The notes beneath the pieces were generated by a model, which saw only the letters and a program-made list of their open reading frames with translations, had not been told where the DNA came from and did not search any database. A program made the position numbers and the translations under genes. From the NCBI RefSeq assembly GCF_003261055.1, contig NZ_CP030073.1:8246001-8310000 (forward strand): a stretch of 64,000 bases of DNA, written 5' to 3'. The DNA is from Streptomyces cadmiisoli. GTDB lineage: Bacteria; Actinomycetota; Actinomycetes; Streptomycetales; Streptomycetaceae. This document shows, in pieces, positions 38,456 through 49,248 of this stretch (positions within the stretch are counted from its first letter, which is position 1; each line of letters starts with the position of its first letter).

Positions 38456-38878
38456 TCATGCCGAAGCCGGGATCCCCAACTCGGTGAGCAGCCCGCGTAC
38501 TCGCTGCTCCACGGCGTCGCGGATCGGCCGGACGGCGTCGACGCCCTGCCCCGCCGGGTCGTCCAACTGCCAGTCCAGGTACCGCTTCCCGGGGAAGACG
38601 GGGCAAGCGTCCCCGCAGCCCATGGTGATCACCACGTCCGAGCACTGCACTGCCTGCGTGGTGAGGACCTGCGGCGTCCGGGCGGAGATGTCGATGCCCA
38701 CCTCCTTCATCGCCTCCACGACCGCGGGGTTGACGGAGTCGGCGGGGGCGGAGCCCGCCGAGCGGACCTCCACCCGGTCGCCGGCGAGATGGGCGAGGAA
38801 CGCGGCGCCCATCTGCGAGCGGCCGGCGTTGTGCACGCAGACGAACAGCACCGACGGACGGACGACGGACGTGGTCAT
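38456..38878 (-). CDS. arsC: Arsenate reductase (low-molecular-weight phosphatase fold)
   Basis: 140 residues. The CX5R catalytic loop is CVHNAGR (Cys14, Arg20). Cys79, Cys88 and Cys92 (VQCSDVVITMGCGDACP) are placed for a disulfide relay or mycothiol chemistry. It reduces arsenate to arsenite. It is the third gene of the arsR operon, 26 bp after the aquaporin gene. Confidence 0.92.
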   Translation of the reverse strand: MTTSVVRPSVLFVCVHNAGRSQMGAAFLAHLAGDRVEVRSAGSAPADSVNPAVVEAMKEVGIDISARTPQVLTTQAVQCSDVVITMGCGDACPVFPGKRYLDWQLDDPAGQGVDAVRPIRDAVEQRVRGLLTELGIPASA

Positions 38879-38904
38879 GGCAGATGTCTTTCTCGGGGAT
38901 GCGG

Positions 38905-39648
38905 TCAGGAAGAGGCGGGTTCGAGGTCGTCCTCGCGGCGCGGAGCACCGATGTCGCGGCGGGCCGGGGCGGTGTCCGGGCCGTGGACCACGGCCACGAC
39001 ACCGAGCCCGACCGCGGCGCCCAGCAGTTGCGCGGCGATGAAGGGTGCGACGGAGGAGGGCGCGATCCCGGCGAAGCTGTCGGTGACGGCCCGGCCGACG
39101 GTCGCCGCCGGGTTCGCGAACGAGGTGGAGGAGGTGAACCAGTAGGCCGCCCCGATGTAGGCGGCCACCGCGGCCGGGGCGAGCGCGGAGCGGCCGATCC
39201 GGCCGAGGCCGAGGACGAGCAGAATCAGCCCGGCCGTCGCGACGACCTCACCCAGCCACAGATGGCCGGCGAACCGCTCCCGGGTGGAGAACGACGCGAG
39301 CGGCCTGGCGAACATCGCGTCGGCCAGCACCGCACCACCGAGCGCGCCGGCGATCTGAGCGGGTACGTACACGGCGACGTCGCGCAGGCTGAGGCCGTGC
39401 GGGGTGCGGCGGCCGGTGAACCAGACCGCGAGGGTGACCGCCGGGTTGAAGTGTCCGCCGGAGACCGGTCCGAGCAGGGTGATCAGAACGCCCAGGCCGA
39501 GGACGGTGGCAAGGGAGTTGGCGAGCAACTGCACGCCGACGTCGTCCGACAACACAGTGGCCTGGATGCCGGAGCCGACCACCACCGCGACCAGCAGCGC
39601 CGTCCCGACGGCCTCGGCCGCGACGCGGCGGCCGAGCGGCGGGCTCAC
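38905..39648 (-). CDS. MIP-family aquaglyceroporin (AqpS-like)
   Basis: 247 residues from a GTG that overlaps the arsR stop codon (GTGA). About six helices carry the two half-helix motifs NPAVT (Asn68) and NPAAT (Asn179). In ars operons such channels let arsenite made by ArsC flow out of the cell and replace an ArsB or Acr3 pump, as shown for AqpS in rhizobia. No arsenite pump is present here. The long frame upstream of the GTG overlaps arsR and is excluded. Confidence 0.88.
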   Translation of the reverse strand: MSPPLGRRVAAEAVGTALLVAVVVGSGIQATVLSDDVGVQLLANSLATVLGLGVLITLLGPVSGGHFNPAVTLAVWFTGRRTPHGLSLRDVAVYVPAQIAGALGGAVLADAMFARPLASFSTRERFAGHLWLGEVVATAGLILLVLGLGRIGRSALAPAAVAAYIGAAYWFTSSTSFANPAATVGRAVTDSFAGIAPSSVAPFIAAQLLGAAVGLGVVAVVHGPDTAPARRDIGAPRREDDLEPASS

Positions 39649-40019
39649 GCGTCGGCCCCGGCGGCCTGCGGGGTGGCCAGAAACGCGGCGAGCCGGTCCA
39701 GGACACCGGGCAGCACCCAGTAGTACACCCAGGTCCCGCGCCGTTGGCAGTCGATGAGTCCGGCCTGCCGCAGCAGCTTGAGATGGTGGGAGATCGTCGG
39801 CTGCGACAGGTCGAAGGCCGGTGTCAGCTCGCACACGCAGACCTCACCGCTCTCGCCGCGCGAGGCGATCATCGACATCAGCCGCAGTCGGACCGGGTCG
39901 CCCAGGGCCTTGAAGAACTTCGCCAGCTCGCCCGCCTCGTCCTCGCCGAGCGGCGCGGCGGACAGGGCCGGGCAGCAGGCGGCGTCCTGGTCGATGATCT
40001 CGAGCTCTTGCTTCGACAT
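39645..40019 (-). CDS. arsR: ArsR-family arsenite-responsive repressor
   Basis: 124 residues with winged HTH (DLSQPTISHHLKLLRQAGLIDCQRRG). Cys15-Cys16 near the N-terminus and the EVCVCEL pair (Cys62, Cys64) are likely As(III) ligands; an N-terminal CC pair also occurs in the Corynebacterium-type ArsR. It heads the arsR-aquaporin-arsC operon and faces arsM across a palindromic operator. Confidence 0.92.
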   Translation of the reverse strand: MSKQELEIIDQDAACCPALSAAPLGEDEAGELAKFFKALGDPVRLRLMSMIASRGESGEVCVCELTPAFDLSQPTISHHLKLLRQAGLIDCQRRGTWVYYWVLPGVLDRLAAFLATPQAAGADA

Positions 40020-40028
40020 GCGTCTATG

Positions 40029-40075
40029 TTGACGTTCTTCGAATCAAAGCGCAAGCTTGCATCAAGGAACGTCAA
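40029..40075. promoter_or_regulatory. ArsR operator between arsR and arsM
   Basis: TTGACGTTC (40029-40037) and GAACGTCAA (40067-40075) are perfect 9-bp inverted arms. They enclose two ATCAA elements and a GCAAGCTTGC palindrome (40051-40060). It can control both divergent transcripts. Confidence 0.75.
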
Positions 40076-40124
40076 TACAAGCCGTTCAGGGGCGTGCCCA
40101 GCCCCCACCATCCAGGAGTGAGTC

Positions 40125-40901
40125 ATGCGTGAGCAGTCCACTGACCTGCGTGAAACCGTCCGCCGACGCTATGCCGCGGCGGCCGTCCAGGTCACCGAGG
40201 GAGGCACCGCCTGCTGCGGTCCCGAACCGGTGGAGGTCGACGAGAACTTCGGTTCCACCGTGTACACGGCAGCTGAGCGCGACGCCTTGCCCGCGGAGGC
40301 CGTCGCCGCCTCCCTCGGCTGCGGCAACCCCACCGCGGTCGCCGAGCTCCGGGAGGGCGAGTGCGTCCTGGACCTCGGCTCCGGCGGCGGCATCGACGTC
40401 CTGCTCTCCGCCCGCCGTGTCGGACCGACGGGCAAGGTGTACGGGCTCGACATGACCGAGGAGATGCTGGCCCTGGCCGTGGCCAACACGCGCAAGGCGG
40501 GAGCCGAGAACGTCGAGTTCCTCAAGGGCGCGATCGAGGCGATACCGCTGCCCGCGAACACCGTCGACGTGGTGATCTCCAACTGTGTGATCAACCTGTC
40601 GGTGGACAAGCCGGCCGTCTTCGCCGAGACCTTCCGCGTGCTGAGGCCCGGCGGCCGGATCGGTGTGTCGGACGTCGTCGCCGACGACACTCTCACCGGC
40701 GAACAGCGCGCCCAGCGGGGCGACTACGTCGGCTGCATCGCCGGGGCCCTGTCCTTCGCCGAATACCGTGCCGGTCTGGTGGCCGCCGGGTTCACCGACG
40801 TCTCGATCACGCCCACCCACCCGGTGGCCGACGGCATGCACTCCGCCGTCGTCCGCGCCGTCAAGCCGCACGATGCGCCGCCGCCCCCGGAGACGGCGTA
40901 G
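40125..40901 (+). CDS. arsM: Arsenite S-adenosylmethionine methyltransferase
   Basis: 258 residues. The SAM motif is VLDLGSGGGIDVLLSA (81-96). Cys66, Cys154 (ISNCVINLS) and Cys204 (GDYVGCIAGAL) match the three conserved cysteines that bind As(III) in ArsM. A CC pair (30-31) is extra. It methylates arsenite to volatile or less retained species. AGGAG lies six bases before ATG. It is divergent from the arsR operon. Confidence 0.93.
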   Translation: MREQSTDLRETVRRRYAAAAVQVTEGGTACCGPEPVEVDENFGSTVYTAAERDALPAEAVAASLGCGNPTAVAELREGECVLDLGSGGGIDVLLSARRVGPTGKVYGLDMTEEMLALAVANTRKAGAENVEFLKGAIEAIPLPANTVDVVISNCVINLSVDKPAVFAETFRVLRPGGRIGVSDVVADDTLTGEQRAQRGDYVGCIAGALSFAEYRAGLVAAGFTDVSITPTHPVADGMHSAVVRAVKPHDAPPPPETA

Positions 40902-42698: not shown

Positions 42699-45626
42699 AT
42701 GGCGAGACAGGTCAACACCGATGCCGGCCGACTCCCGGCGCTCGGCGTGCCGCGGTTCGTCGGGCGGGACCGGGAACTCGCCGTACTGGGTGAAGCGCTG
42801 GAAGATCCGCCCGTCGTGGTGCTGATCGACGGCGAGGCCGGCATCGGCAAGACGCGGCTGCTGCGGGAGTTCCTGGCACCCCAGGCCGAGCGTGGGCGTC
42901 GCGTCCTGGCCGGGGCGTGCCCGGAGTTGCGCGTGCCGTACACGCTCGGCGCGGTGGTGGACGCGGTGCGCGACGGTGTCGCGGGTGTGTCCGGGCTGCG
43001 GCTCAGCGGACTGGGCGGTGCCCTGCGGCCGTTGTTCCCCGAGTGGGCGGCCGACCTGCCGCCGGCGCCGGAGCCGCTGGAGGACGCGACCGCGGCGCGA
43101 CACCGCCTGTTCCGGGCTTTCGTCGAGGTGTTCAGCCGGCTCGACGTGGCGGTCCTGGCACTCGAGGACGTGCACTGGGCGGACGAGGCGACCCTGGAGT
43201 TCCTGCTGTTCCTGGTCTCCCGCCGACCGCAGCCGGTGAGCGTGGTCGTGACCTTCCGGCGGGAGGAGGTGCCGGGAGATTCGCTGCTGCTGCGCCTCTC
43301 CTCCCGGCTGCCCGCCGACGCGCACCTGGCGAGACTGACCCTGAAGCCGCTCGCGATCGGCGAGACCGCCGCGTTCGTCTCCTCGATGCTCGCCGACGAA
43401 CATGTGTCGGCCGAGTTCGCGACCTTCCTGCACACACGGACGGAAGGCGTACCGCTGGCGGTGGAGGAGTCGGTGCGGTTGATGCACGACCGGGCCGACC
43501 TCGTACGCCAGGACGGCGGATGGGCTCGCCGCCGGCTGGACCGCATCGAGGTGCCGCCCACCATCCGTGACGCCATGCTGGAACGTGTCGGGCGGCTCCC
43601 GCCGGACACGCGCACGGTCCTGTACGCGGTGTCGGTGCTCTCCGGCCCGGCCGACTACGCGACCCTCAACGCGGTGACCGGCCTGCCCGCGGACCGGTTC
43701 GCCGCGCAGGCTGCCGACGCGATGGCGTGCGGCCTGCTGCGTGAGGACGGGCCCGGACAGTGGTCGTTCCGGCACTCCCTGGCGTGTCACGCCGTGTACG
43801 AGGCCATCCCGGCCCAGGAGCGGCGCGCCATGCATCTGCGGGCGGGCCGAGCGCTGGAGGAGTGGCGGCTGCCGCCGGTGGCGCAGTTGGCCCGGCACTT
43901 CCGGCTGGCCGGTGACATCGAGACGTCGTGCCGGTACACCGAGCAGGCAGCGGACCTGTGCGCGCAGTCCGGTGACGTGGCCACCTCCGCACTGCTGCTC
44001 CACAGCCTCGTCACCACGGTCGCCCTGCCGGTGGAGGCGCTGGTACGGCTGGTCATGAAGATTCAGTTCCAGGCGCTGCCCGGTTCCGACCCGTACTCGA
44101 AGATCGTCGGAGCGTTGCGGTCGGCGCTGCGGACCCAGGCCCTGCCACCGGAACAGGAGGCACTGGTCCGCTTCCACATCGGCCGGGTGCTCATGACGGC
44201 GGGCGACATGGAAACGGGCCGTCTCGAGGTGCTCGGAGCGGTGCCCCACCTCGCGCCGGACTCGCTGGAAGCTGCGCGGGCCCGCATCCTGCTCGCCCTG
44301 CCCCTCGGCAACACATGTCCCGCATCGGAGCATCTGCGGTGGCTGCACAAAGCACCCGCGGTGGCGCCGGCCGTCGCGCCTCACGAGCGACTGCGCCTGT
44401 TCCTGGACCGTGCGCTCGCGCTGCTCGTGCTCGGTGAGGAGGCCGGGTGGGCCGAGGCCCGGCGGATACCGGACGACGTCGCCAGCCCACGGGAGGCGGC
44501 GCTCGTCGCACTGGGCCACGCCAATGCCGGCGAGGTCGCGATGCGCTGGGGGCGGTACGACGAGGCCGCGGCACGGTTCGCCAAGGCCAGGGCGCTCGCC
44601 GAGCGCTACGAGTTGCTGGGCACTCTCGACGGCATCACCTCGACCGGTGTCCACCTGGCCTGGTTCACCGGCGCCTGGACGGGACTCGCGGACCGGGCCG
44701 CGGGACTGGTCGACGACGACGGGGTGCGTCTGAAGGACCGGTGCGAGGCCGCCCTCGTCGCGGGCTTGATGGAGGCTGCCGCCGGAGACCGCGAAACGGC
44801 GGAGCAGCGTCTGCGCTTCGCCGAGCGCGACGAACAGCAACGCATCGATGCCGTGGCCGCGCTGGCACACCTGCGCCTGCGCGACGGAGACACCGACGAG
44901 GCGCTGCGGCTGACCGATGAACTGGCCGAGATCGCCGTGGGCAGTGGAATCTGGCCCCGGGCCGTCGAGTTCGCCCCGGTGCGGCTCGCGGCCCTGGTGG
45001 CCGCCGGTCGGCTCGGACCCGCCGCCGACCTGGTGACGATGTTCGAACGGGCGTTGGGCACCAAGGACGCTCCGGCCGCCCAGGCTTCCCTGCTCCTGTG
45101 TCGCGCGGTCCTGACCGAAGCGGACGGCGCACTCACCGAGGCCGCGGAGTTGTTCGCGCGGACGTCCGACGCCTGGCAGGCACTGCCGCGGCCGTACGAC
45201 GCCCTGCTCGCCCGGGAGCGCCATGCCCGCTGCCTGCTCGCCGCGGGGCGGCACGAGGCCGCGCTGTCGCTGCTGTCCGACGTCGCGAAGGCGTTGGCGG
45301 AACTCGGTGCCCACAACGACGCCGACCGAGTGGCACGGATCCTCGGCGAGCACGACGGGAACACCCGGGTGTCGCGCGGACGGGGCCGACCCGGCTACGG
45401 CAACCGGCTCTCGCCGCGCGAACTGGAGGTGGCCCGACTGCTGGTCGGCGGTCTGACGAACCGACAGATCGCGGAGGATCTCGGGGTGTCGACGCAGACC
45501 GTGGCCAGCCAGGTGAAGTCGGCCATGCGCAAGCTGTGTGTGACGTCGCGGACGGCGCTCGCGCTCAGAGTCGTGGAGTCGGGTCTCGTCGGCGAGCAGG
45601 GGCGATCGCCGCTGCTCGCCGAGTAG
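42699..45626 (+). CDS. LuxR-family regulator of the LAL type
   Basis: 975 residues. An AAA/STAND ATPase has Walker A GEAGIGKTR (45-53) and Walker B VLALEDVHWAD. A TPR-like middle is followed by a C-terminal LuxR HTH (LSPRELEVARLLVGGLTNRQIAEDLGVSTQTVASQV). It is upstream of, and in the same direction as, the Pls-like gene, with 718 bp between them. It is therefore a candidate pathway-specific activator, but that is only positional. Confidence 0.9.
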   Translation: MARQVNTDAGRLPALGVPRFVGRDRELAVLGEALEDPPVVVLIDGEAGIGKTRLLREFLAPQAERGRRVLAGACPELRVPYTLGAVVDAVRDGVAGVSGLRLSGLGGALRPLFPEWAADLPPAPEPLEDATAARHRLFRAFVEVFSRLDVAVLALEDVHWADEATLEFLLFLVSRRPQPVSVVVTFRREEVPGDSLLLRLSSRLPADAHLARLTLKPLAIGETAAFVSSMLADEHVSAEFATFLHTRTEGVPLAVEESVRLMHDRADLVRQDGGWARRRLDRIEVPPTIRDAMLERVGRLPPDTRTVLYAVSVLSGPADYATLNAVTGLPADRFAAQAADAMACGLLREDGPGQWSFRHSLACHAVYEAIPAQERRAMHLRAGRALEEWRLPPVAQLARHFRLAGDIETSCRYTEQAADLCAQSGDVATSALLLHSLVTTVALPVEALVRLVMKIQFQALPGSDPYSKIVGALRSALRTQALPPEQEALVRFHIGRVLMTAGDMETGRLEVLGAVPHLAPDSLEAARARILLALPLGNTCPASEHLRWLHKAPAVAPAVAPHERLRLFLDRALALLVLGEEAGWAEARRIPDDVASPREAALVALGHANAGEVAMRWGRYDEAAARFAKARALAERYELLGTLDGITSTGVHLAWFTGAWTGLADRAAGLVDDDGVRLKDRCEAALVAGLMEAAAGDRETAEQRLRFAERDEQQRIDAVAALAHLRLRDGDTDEALRLTDELAEIAVGSGIWPRAVEFAPVRLAALVAAGRLGPAADLVTMFERALGTKDAPAAQASLLLCRAVLTEADGALTEAAELFARTSDAWQALPRPYDALLARERHARCLLAAGRHEAALSLLSDVAKALAELGAHNDADRVARILGEHDGNTRVSRGRGRPGYGNRLSPRELEVARLLVGGLTNRQIAEDLGVSTQTVASQVKSAMRKLCVTSRTALALRVVESGLVGEQGRSPLLAE

Positions 45627-46344: not shown

Positions 46345-49248
46345 ATGATCGGCCACAGTCAGGACACCACGGACACACATTCGGCAACGGCCGGCACCGA
46401 GTCGCTGCTGGCCGAGGTGTTGGCTGGTGTGTTGCGGGTGGATCGGGTGCCGGTCGAGGGTCATTTCTTCGAGGATCTGGGTGCTGATTCGCTGTTGATG
46501 GCGCAGTTCTGTGCGCGGGTGCGGAAGCGGGGTGATTTGCCGGCGGTGTCGATGAAGGATGTGTACCGGCATTCCACGATCCGGAGCCTGGCCGCCGCGC
46601 TCGCGGAGACCGCGCCGCCGTCTGCGCGGACCGCATCATCGCCTGCGACGACCGCATCATCGCCCGCGGGAACGGCGGCTTCGCCAGCCGGAGCAGCGTC
46701 GGCGATCCGCTCCCCGGCCGGCACCGAGTCGCTGCTGGCCGAGGTGTTGGCTGGTGTGTTGCGGGTGGATCGGGTGCCGGTCGAGGGTCATTTCTTCGAG
46801 GATCTGGGTGCTGATTCGCTGTTGATGGCGCAGTTCTGTGCGCGGGTGCGGAAGCGGGGTGATTTGCCGGCGGTGTCCATGAAGGATGTGTACCGGCATT
46901 CCACGATCCGGAGCCTGGCCGCAGCCTTCACGGACACTCCACCCCCGCCCGAGTCGACGTCATCGGCTCCGCCCTCGCCCGAGCCGACAGCAACCTTCTC
47001 ACCCGAGCATCCGGGCCGGGCCGTCGCGGCGGCGCCCGACGCAACGGACTCACCGGACGCATCGGCGATCAGCGCATGGAAATACCTGGTGTGCGGGACG
47101 GCGCAGCTTCTGGTCTTCGCGGGTTTCAGCTGTGCCGGTGCGCTCATCGCCGTGCACGGCTACCAGTGGATCGACGCGGGCGTCGGAACAGCTGACGTCT
47201 ACCTGCGAGCGGTGGCGTTCGGGGCAGTGGTCTTCGTCGGGCTGTGCGCGCTGTCCATCGTGGCCAAATGGACGCTGATCGGCCGTTTCACCGCTCGCGA
47301 GATCCCGCTGTGGAGCCTCGCCTACCTGCGCTTCTGGTGCGTCAAGACCCTCATCCGCACCAGCCCGGCACGGCTGTTCCCCGGGTCACCGCTGTACGTG
47401 CTGTACCTCAGAGCGCTCGGCGCGCACATCGCGAAGGGCGTCACCGTCCTCACTCGTAACGTTCCGGTCTGTACCGACATGATCTCCATCGGCAGCGGCA
47501 CGGTCATTCGCAAGGACGTTTTCATGTCCGGCTATCGCGCGCACGGCGGCCGGATCGAGACGGGTCCGGTCACCCTCGGCGCGGGGGTGACCATCGCAGA
47601 GCAGTCCGTCATCGACATCGGGACATCGATGGGCGACAGCTCCCAACTCGGGCACGCCTCTTCCCTGCATCCAGGACAGTCCGTACCGGCCGGCCAGTCC
47701 TGGCACGGCACGCCCGCGCGGCCGACGAGCACGGACTTCCGGGCGGTGGAATCCGTGAGCTGTGGAACCCTGCGCAGGGCCGTCTACGGGTCGTGGCAGT
47801 TCCTCGGCCTGGTGCTGGTGTATTTCCCGCTGACGCTGGCCGGCATCGGTCTGCTGCTCGCGCTGGTGCCGCAGCTGAACGCCGTGGTGACTGCGGGCGG
47901 GCCGGACTTCACGAGTCCGGCGCTCGTGGCAGAAGCGCTGGTCGCGTCGCTGGTGGGCTTCTTCGGCGTCCTCCTGGCGGCCCTCGTGATCATGACCACC
48001 GTACCGAAGGTGCTGGGGCGGGTGATCGAGCCGGGCAGGACGTACCCCCTCTACGGCTTCCACTACGGCGTCCAACGACTGGTCATGCTGATGACCAACG
48101 TCAGGTTCCTCGTGCTGCTGTTCGGCGACAGCTCCGCGATCGTGCACTATCTGCGGTCCCTCGGCTACGACCTGTGCAGGGTGCAGCAGACGGGGTCGAA
48201 CTTCGGCTCGTTGGTCAAACACGAAACCCCGTATCTGAGCAGGGTCGGCTCCGGAACGATGGTGGCCGACGGTCTGTCGATCATCAACGCAGACTTCTCC
48301 AGCACGTCGTTCCGCTACGCCCGGACGTCGATCGGGGAGAGCAGCTTCCTCGGCAACAACATCGTCTATCCGTCACGTGCCCGCGTCGGCGACAACTGCC
48401 TGCTCGCCACGAAGGTGATGGTTCCGATCGACGGGCCGGTCCGCCAAGGTGTCGGCCTGTTGGGTTCGCCCAGCTTCGAGATACCGCGCACCGTGTACCG
48501 GGACAGCCGGTTCGACGACCTGGCCGCCGGTGACGAGCTGCGCCGCCGCCTCGCCGGGAAGAACCGGCACAACGCGCAGACCGCGGGCCTCTTCCTGCTG
48601 ATGCAGTGGTTCCACTTCTTTGTGCTCGCGGTCGTCGCCACGGTCGCCGTGGACCTGTACCCCGATGTGGGCCCACTGGTGTTCGCGGCGGCCGGGCTGC
48701 TCAGTCTGTCGTTCACCGTGGCCTTCTTCGCGGCGGTCGAGCGGACCGTGACGAGACGCCACCCGCTGAAGCCGTTGTACTGCTCGATCTACGACCCGTC
48801 CTTCTGGCAACACGAACGCTTCTGGAAGTTGACCACGCACCGGTACATGCAGGTCTTCAACGGCACCCCGTTCAAGGCCCTGGTCTGGCGGCTCCTGGGC
48901 GTCAGGATCGGCCGCCAGGTCTTCGACGACGGCTGCTCGCTGATCGAGCGGTCACTCGTCAGCATCGGAGACCGCTGCACCCTCAACGCCGCGACGGTCG
49001 TGCAGTGCCACTCGCAGGAGGACGGCGCCTTCAAGTCCGACCGCATCGCGATAGGCGCCGGCGTGACCCTGGGTGTCGGAGCCTTCGTGCACTACGGCAC
49101 GACCATCCACGACCGGGCGCAACTCGCCGCCGACTCGTTCCTGATGAAGGGGGAGGAAGTCCCGGCCGAGTCGCGATGGAGCGGAAACCCGGCCGAGGAG
49201 GTCGAGGCCGCGGTGGAACCGTCGCCAGCCCGGGCGCGGCTTCACTGA
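46345..49248 (+). CDS. Pls/PosA-type poly-amino-acid synthetase half with two carrier domains, no adenylation domain
   Basis: 967 residues. Two phosphopantetheine carrier domains (about 17-85 and 126-194) have attachment serines Ser49 and Ser158 in DLGADSLLM; their protein sequences are identical. After a Pro-rich linker comes the Pls C-terminal half: two helices (about 244-270, 285-312), a hexapeptide-like soluble domain (360-450), two helices (482-510, 527-555), a second (630-710), two more (746-800) and a third (840-955). In epsilon-poly-lysine synthetase this half extends the polymer, but an adenylation domain precedes its single carrier. Here none is present, nor any nearby, so amino acids must be activated in trans. 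GGAGG seven bases before ATG fixes the start. The product is unknown. Confidence 0.85.
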   Translation: MIGHSQDTTDTHSATAGTESLLAEVLAGVLRVDRVPVEGHFFEDLGADSLLMAQFCARVRKRGDLPAVSMKDVYRHSTIRSLAAALAETAPPSARTASSPATTASSPAGTAASPAGAASAIRSPAGTESLLAEVLAGVLRVDRVPVEGHFFEDLGADSLLMAQFCARVRKRGDLPAVSMKDVYRHSTIRSLAAAFTDTPPPPESTSSAPPSPEPTATFSPEHPGRAVAAAPDATDSPDASAISAWKYLVCGTAQLLVFAGFSCAGALIAVHGYQWIDAGVGTADVYLRAVAFGAVVFVGLCALSIVAKWTLIGRFTAREIPLWSLAYLRFWCVKTLIRTSPARLFPGSPLYVLYLRALGAHIAKGVTVLTRNVPVCTDMISIGSGTVIRKDVFMSGYRAHGGRIETGPVTLGAGVTIAEQSVIDIGTSMGDSSQLGHASSLHPGQSVPAGQSWHGTPARPTSTDFRAVESVSCGTLRRAVYGSWQFLGLVLVYFPLTLAGIGLLLALVPQLNAVVTAGGPDFTSPALVAEALVASLVGFFGVLLAALVIMTTVPKVLGRVIEPGRTYPLYGFHYGVQRLVMLMTNVRFLVLLFGDSSAIVHYLRSLGYDLCRVQQTGSNFGSLVKHETPYLSRVGSGTMVADGLSIINADFSSTSFRYARTSIGESSFLGNNIVYPSRARVGDNCLLATKVMVPIDGPVRQGVGLLGSPSFEIPRTVYRDSRFDDLAAGDELRRRLAGKNRHNAQTAGLFLLMQWFHFFVLAVVATVAVDLYPDVGPLVFAAAGLLSLSFTVAFFAAVERTVTRRHPLKPLYCSIYDPSFWQHERFWKLTTHRYMQVFNGTPFKALVWRLLGVRIGRQVFDDGCSLIERSLVSIGDRCTLNAATVVQCHSQEDGAFKSDRIAIGAGVTLGVGAFVHYGTTIHDRAQLAADSFLMKGEEVPAESRWSGNPAEEVEAAVEPSPARARLH
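46388..46595 (+). repeat. Carrier-domain duplication, copy 1
   Basis: 208 bp repeated 327 bp downstream with one difference, G46551 versus C46878, which is synonymous (TCG/TCC serine). It encodes carrier domain 1. The codons here end in T more often (GAT, GGT, TGT) than in the rest of the gene. Confidence 0.95.
46715..46922 (+). repeat. Carrier-domain duplication, copy 2
   Basis: Second copy of the 208-bp unit, encoding carrier domain 2. The linker between the copies has its own short repeat: GACCGCATCATCGCC occurs twice, 21 bp apart, at 46629 and 46650. Confidence 0.95.

Follow-up and report, generated by a model that had tools for sequence, protein, structure and literature searches.

The 64-kb window analysed here (C1:8246001-8310000 of Streptomyces cadmiisoli, whose 10.24-Mb genome is assembled in two contigs) carries, at positions 46345-49248 of the forward strand, a gene for a protein of the Pls/PosA type, in which two carrier domains precede the terminal domain and an adenylation (A) domain is missing. 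We propose, with roughly even confidence, that this protein provides the polymerising subunit of a homo-poly(amino acid) synthetase whose parts are split over separate proteins, and that it is loaded in trans with a monomer of the L-2,3-diaminopropionate (Dap) type by an A protein encoded in a paralogous gene cluster (locus L049) of the same genome. The observed basis of this proposal comprises the domain content of the protein, its conservation, the partner clustered with its relatives, one fusion of the partners, the co-occurrence of solo gene and cluster, and the descent of the solo copies. The features of the gene are as follows.

46345..49248, + strand: complete gene, carrier-carrier-Pls terminal domain, 967 amino acids (aa), no A domain (open reading frame (ORF), NCBIfam, Pfam)
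46388..46981, + strand: 267-nt direct repeat pair bearing both carriers (46388-46654 and 46715-46981; 91% identity, spacing 327 nt; repeat search)
46405..46611, + strand: first carrier domain (residues 21-89), with S49 of FFEDLGADSL as predicted phosphopantetheine serine (PF00550, carrier hidden Markov model (HMM), motif position)
46732..46938, + strand: second carrier domain (residues 130-198), almost identical to the first, with S158 as predicted serine (PF00550, carrier HMM, motif position)
47089..49194, + strand: Pls/PosA terminal (polymerisation) domain, residues 249-950, with six membrane-length helices and three beta-helix acyltransferase-like domains (TIGR02353, AlphaFold2)
49009..49011, + strand: codon of the candidate catalytic residue H889, which lies in the third beta-helix domain (His in 207/207 aligned Pls domains)

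The ORF is a single intact frame whose sole stop is its end, and the nearest homologue (P0002) starts at the same residues. Residues 249-950 match TIGR02353 (NCBIfam) over the entire profile (1-695 of 695) with 734.5 bits against a curated cut-off of 423.1, which makes the protein a full-length member of this family. A carrier with a phosphopantetheine serine, as in the Pls, PosA and PDAP (poly(L-diaminopropionic acid)) type, is present twice, each copy with a GADS motif, but the N-terminal A domain that cationic homo-poly(amino acid) synthetases have in the same protein is absent: the Pfam scan found two PF00550 stretches and no PF00501 match at E <= 1. A sequence error hiding an A domain was considered and rejected, as carriers and Pls domain share one frame and many relatives have the same layout; upstream, no more than about 31 further aa are open (998 aa from stop to stop). 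A chance or one-off architecture was rejected too, the layout being common among relatives.

The AlphaFold2 model of the protein (mean predicted local distance difference test (pLDDT) 74.9, predicted template-modelling score (pTM) 0.72) contains two helical carrier bundles, six predicted membrane-length helices (residues 244-277, 281-312, 475-507, 525-558, 730-775 and 778-805) and three beta-rich domains, one each after the first, second and third helix pair. The arrangement that defines TIGR02353, namely six helices separating three soluble beta-helix domains, is thus predicted to be complete, and the first-pass annotation was right in describing an intact polymerase half of this kind with two carriers in place of the A domain. 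The beta-helix domains gave fold matches to acetyltransferases, in which VIA-align covered mainly the acetyltransferase-like parts, and we therefore make no fold claim for the membrane helices. In the PDB, a sequence search at E <= 0.01 matched carrier-bearing and hexapeptide-repeat proteins but no Pls terminal domain, a domain for which structural information is lacking according to PMC10522769. The histidine at the position of H889 is shared by all 207 aligned Pls domains, those of the fused A-carrier-Pls enzymes included, and the window protein matches 75 of the 82 columns that are at least 90% conserved among 11 fused enzymes.

The layout is widespread. TIGR02353 scored over its cut-off in 98 of 179 sampled Streptomyces genomes, with 72 hits in open frames shorter than 1,200 aa; 71 of these (G014:C76, at a contig edge, was left out) and L195 (G112) gave 72 loci, and removal of three fragments of the fused type (L196, L197 and L199) yielded 69 A-less carrier-Pls genes. 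These include L198 and L190, both cut by contig ends, and most fused hits were left out. Neighbours were called from tblastn matches of >55% identity within a flank of up to about 8 kb. By this measure, 65 of the 69 genes have at least one of four partner genes nearby, and 59 have all four: a separate A-carrier protein (trans-A), a TauD dioxygenase, SbnB and SbnA, the last two for synthesis of Dap. At least 59 of the 179 genomes carry trans-A near an A-less gene, a count that would miss a trans-A located elsewhere. In L195, the partners are joined in one ORF of 2323 aa, with carrier-Pls at residues 171-872, an A domain at 1259-1614 and a weak second carrier match at 1909-1970; L190 has a TauD neighbour together with a different A-like protein (28% identity). 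The four solo genes among the 69 are the window gene, L103 (G034), L186 (G118) and L188 (G093). The A-less carrier-Pls protein is therefore a conserved architecture common in Streptomyces rather than a lesion.

The genome of S. cadmiisoli itself encodes three TIGR02353 proteins above the cut-off, viz., that of the window, a fused A-carrier-Pls protein (C1:6887392-6889425; L050) with an A domain that scores 660 bits against epsilon-poly-L-lysine synthase 7wew, and a second A-less carrier-Pls protein (C1:8101093-8103192; L003/L049). The latter belongs to a cluster about 190 kb from the window gene.

L049 6683-9226: A-less carrier-Pls gene, overlapping the next gene by 4 bases
L049 9223-11907 (C1:8103222-8105906): trans-A protein with AMP-binding, AMP-binding_C and PP-binding domains
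L049 11966-13000: TauD dioxygenase
L049 12997-14067: ornithine-cyclodeaminase/SbnB-like protein (PF02423), named SbnB from this domain and its position
L049 14121-15143: SbnA (TIGR03945, 380 bits, over cut-off), the only one over the cut-off in the genome

None of the four partners lies near the window gene (window positions 36001-60000, E <= 1e-30). The remark in the first-pass annotation that the window holds no A enzyme or phosphopantetheinyl transferase is literally correct, as all 80 PF00501 and three PF01648 matches of the genome lie outside it, and the three PF01648 matches could serve in carrier priming; it misleads in that the candidate partner, a stand-alone A protein of the sort that the annotation proposed to look for, sits in L049. 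Nor is the gene unique, A-less genes being common in Streptomyces and a second copy lying in the same genome.

The trans-A proteins are normally intact. The A3 motif is retained in all 63 that were read, and A3 together with NxYGxTExxDD occurs in 120/120 homologues among the matches listed. A strict A10 lysine pattern was found in 29/63, and the six inspected of the 34 misses all have the lysine in a variant form, [GS]K[IT]D. No trans-A protein (0/63) has HHxxxD[GA] ahead of its A domain, and among the homologues listed 2/120 contain this motif anywhere. Pocket positions, assigned by GrsA numbering and regular expressions, read D-I-W with S-T-A-D-D in 60/63 (three differ), the fourth position being unreadable in 56 of the 63 loci; the motif-derived pocket of the L049 protein is D-I-W-Q-S-T-A-D-D. 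This pocket string found no substrate match, and it is absent from the main text of PMC12283262. By hand count, thioesterase PF00975 is present in 41/120 and TauD PF02668 in 6/120 of the trans-A homologues listed; GxSxG falls within the last 250 residues in 37 of the 51 homologues of at least 1000 aa, and the stricter GxSxGG in 1/120.

The carriers of these proteins vary in number and resemble each other within a protein. Relatives have 1 to 6 carriers by profile, with at least two in 60 of 121 proteins, and the serine motif is kept in 140 of the 145 carriers of multi-carrier proteins; P0046 has six carriers by profile (four by motif) ahead of its Pls domain. The two window carriers differ by one codon over a 66-codon core (nonsynonymous divergence (dN) 0, synonymous divergence (dS) 0.019), and S158 is invariant across a 44-sequence alignment. 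In 678 of the 703 pairs that two-carrier proteins form, similarity is greater between the carriers of one protein than between same-position carriers of different proteins, with the reverse in 24 and equality in one, which indicates that carrier copies evolve in concert, by homogenisation or repeated duplication. P0002, 98% identical to the window protein, has a single carrier and falls short of it by 109 aa, which is exactly one repeat unit; given this protein and the range of 1 to 6 among relatives, two carriers, which in the first-pass annotation may raise throughput, are inessential. Near-identical tandem acyl carrier proteins are also a feature of polyunsaturated fatty acid synthases. The catalytic domains are, however, unrelated: Pfam detected no ketosynthase or fatty-acid synthase domain in the window protein, in which it found PP-binding, hexapeptide and weak below-cut-off matches only.

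The carriers could instead serve another reaction, as donor and acceptor or for two different monomers, and the Pls domain might then form a conjugate or a short amide in place of a polymer. The resemblance of the beta-helix domains to acetyltransferases would fit such a role, as would the thioesterase of many trans-A homologues and the TauD of the pathway, neither of which the accessible text of the papers cited here lists among the domains of Pls, PosA or PDAP synthetase. The relatives characterised in those texts are, however, homopolymer synthetases. Distinct roles are also made less likely by the carriers themselves, which do not differ over most of their core and show more similarity inside a protein than across proteins; we regard this alternative as improbable.

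How the window gene came to stand apart is indicated by its phylogeny. In a tree of 207 leaves rooted on the fused group, the window protein falls in a 58-leaf clade (support 0.917), in which the six leaves with examined neighbourhood are each solo, and a 65-leaf clade (support 0.994) joins this clade to clustered leaves. A second solo group (L018/L188/L011/L012) adjoins the clustered L098/L101. The solo clade is thus nested within the clustered family and descends from clustered carrier-Pls proteins. Solo genes were examined in nine genomes (G000, G034, G118, G093 and those of L008, L009, L010, L011 and L012; L018 and L188 come from the same genome, G093, counted once), and eight of these, that of the window included, have the trans-A cluster elsewhere, against a background of 59/179; in the genome of L011, the A gene of the cluster is split across two contig ends. 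All four solo genomes of the 179-genome sample carry the cluster (hypergeometric probability of about 0.011 by hand, uncorrected for relatedness and for the choice of window).

The solo copies might share the split architecture and yet draw on another donor, such as the fused epsilon-poly-lysine-type A domain, another AMP-binding domain or an acyl group, in which case substrate and product would differ from those of the paralogous cluster. The genome offers such donors in its 80 PF00501 matches and in the fused enzyme with a 7wew-like A domain; one genome (G063) has a solo gene without a trans-A match, and L190 pairs TauD with another A-like protein. The presence of the specific trans-A cluster in eight of the nine solo genomes and the nesting of solo proteins in the clustered family speak against another donor, which we consider unlikely, if the most substantial of the alternatives. 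A still less probable view is that the solo copies are accessory or decaying paralogues that catalyse nothing themselves, or that they modulate the clustered enzyme. It accords with the loss of the serine segment from the first carrier of L103 by internal deletion, with the unstable carrier number (one in P0002, two in the window protein) and with the lack of a neighbour conserved across all solo loci. Selection and conservation point the other way: the solo genes are intact long ORFs in many species, dN/dS is 0.34-0.40 for the window Pls domain against the five other first-clade solo loci and 0.27-0.58 when nine solo sequences are compared in all 36 pairs, and the invariant histidine and the carrier serine motif have been kept throughout the family to the extent described above.

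Several observations weigh against our proposal, which is least secure in its choice of monomer and in the partner assigned to the solo copy. The pocket of the L049 protein lacks the Glu at position 3 that is reported as conserved in cationic homopolymer synthetases in the accessible part of PMC10522769. Since trans-A has a carrier of its own and many of its homologues carry a thioesterase, what is passed to the Pls carriers might be a chain and not a single monomer. The candidate A partner is encoded about 190 kb from the window gene, and no neighbour of the window gene recurs at other solo loci as a partner. G063, which bears the solo gene L010, has no trans-A match at E <= 1e-100 and has a different Dap-type cluster (L203). 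Finally, as solo copies descend from clustered ones, the co-occurrence can stem from shared ancestry.

On balance, we think that the window protein is probably charged by the A protein of the paralogous cluster with Dap or a derivative of it; the trans-loading of the solo copy, its monomer, the polymerisation and the product are what we infer from the evidence above. Such a protein would have arisen from an enzyme of the Pls/PosA/PDAP type by separation or loss of the A domain. A-less forms may, among other possibilities, have come about through decay of the A domain, as the fused A domains of eight relatives in a third tree group (P0075, P0088, P0093, P0094, P0096, P0097, P0099 and P0103) look degenerate, with PF00501-matching N-termini, an altered A3, no A10-like end and, in several, internal deletions, a graded series by eye. 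Read in this way, the fused A domains of these nearest A-bearing relatives were rejected as evidence of loading in cis. In the proposed scheme, an A-carrier protein encoded elsewhere, most likely L049 9223-11907, would activate a small amino acid and load it in trans onto the serines of both window carriers. Condensation of the monomers so loaded would take place at the membrane and fall to the Pls domain with its six helices and three beta-helix parts, perhaps via H889. The monomer is likely Dap, possibly hydroxylated by the TauD protein, given the SbnA and SbnB genes of the paralogous cluster. The trans-loading suggested by the first-pass annotation thus gains indirect support from the clustered genes (65/69), the L195 fusion and the cluster about 190 kb away, and the homopolymer product that it envisaged is plausible by homology.

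Parts of this scheme have parallels in known systems, described here from the accessible text of the papers cited. Pls-type enzymes load a diamino acid on the carrier and polymerise it by the terminal domain (PMC10522769, PMC4668381). The PDAP synthetase of Streptomyces albulus PD-1 has a Pls-type C-terminal domain with three tandem domains, and its monomer comes from homologues of cysteine synthetase and ornithine cyclodeaminase, matching SbnA and SbnB of the paralogous cluster; its A domain is fused, whereas the window protein has two carriers and no A domain, and in relatives of the window protein the A domain sits in a separate, carrier-bearing protein, accompanied by a TauD dioxygenase (PMC4668381). 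The synthetases of epsilon-poly-L-lysine (Pls) and delta-poly-L-ornithine (PosA) share the TIGR02353 domain with its six membrane helices and three beta-helix domains, but are A-carrier-Pls proteins with a Glu-containing pocket, unlike the carrier-carrier-Pls protein of the window (PMC10522769). Loading of L-Dap in trans has a precedent in capreomycin biosynthesis, where CmnA-A1 charges the A-less CmnI, for which a mass shift of +86 Da with L-Dap is reported; CmnI has a condensation domain and a partner in the same pathway, whereas the window protein has a membrane Pls domain (PMC12400406). In Streptomyces scabies, an SbnB homologue encoded near an sbnA homologue and a non-ribosomal peptide synthetase (NRPS) gene is overproduced with potato tuber (PMC11479980).

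The domain family is already known, as NCBI names many such proteins 'Pls/PosA family non-ribosomal peptide synthetase'; for its split, trans-A, multi-carrier organisation, whether as an A-less Pls family or as this cluster, we found no description in the open-licence literature, most subscription papers lying outside this coverage. The occurrence of the cluster in 59 of the 179 genomes points to a common product, a description of which was likewise not found in that literature. A split enzyme separates loading from polymerisation, which allows the A partner and the number of carriers (naturally 1 to 6) to be varied one at a time, in a type of enzyme whose release and chain-length control are called unknown in the accessible text of PMC4668381. 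More tentatively, and with less than even confidence, we suggest a split family of membrane homopolymer synthetases with 1 to 6 concerted carriers, in which solo subunits departed from the cluster on at least two occasions and draw on the same trans-A, and whose product would be a new poly-diaminopropionate, possibly hydroxylated. If so, a genome could make several polymers, or polymers of several lengths, with one activating enzyme.

Other observations concern the surroundings of these genes. A membrane-protein-like gene (by eye; 68-78% identity) occurs at L009 6087-7316, L010 5764-6957 and L103 5464-6690, that is, at three of the six first-clade solo loci, and not near the window gene. The genome of L009 also contains SbnA, A and TauD genes grouped together (L204), with no Pls gene in the 19 kb examined, and in L203 relatives of SbnA, SbnB and TauD (about 40% identity) adjoin another NRPS gene. 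In Arthrobacter ipis (L016 6781-11722 and L201), an SbnA gene directly precedes multi-carrier A-less Pls frames, in a stretch that is partly masked. Fused A-carrier-Pls genes are followed at L013 10430-11077 and L015 6838-7488 by small proteins (38% identity over 157 residues) that we take to resemble phosphopantetheinyl transferases. Within the window, a LuxR-type ATPase regulator (AAA_16 and GerE; 42699-45626) on the same strand ends 718 bases upstream of the Pls gene, and positions 38456-40901 hold, by eye, arsenic-group-like genes for a small phosphatase-type reductase, an ArsR-like regulator and an arsenite-methyltransferase-like protein.

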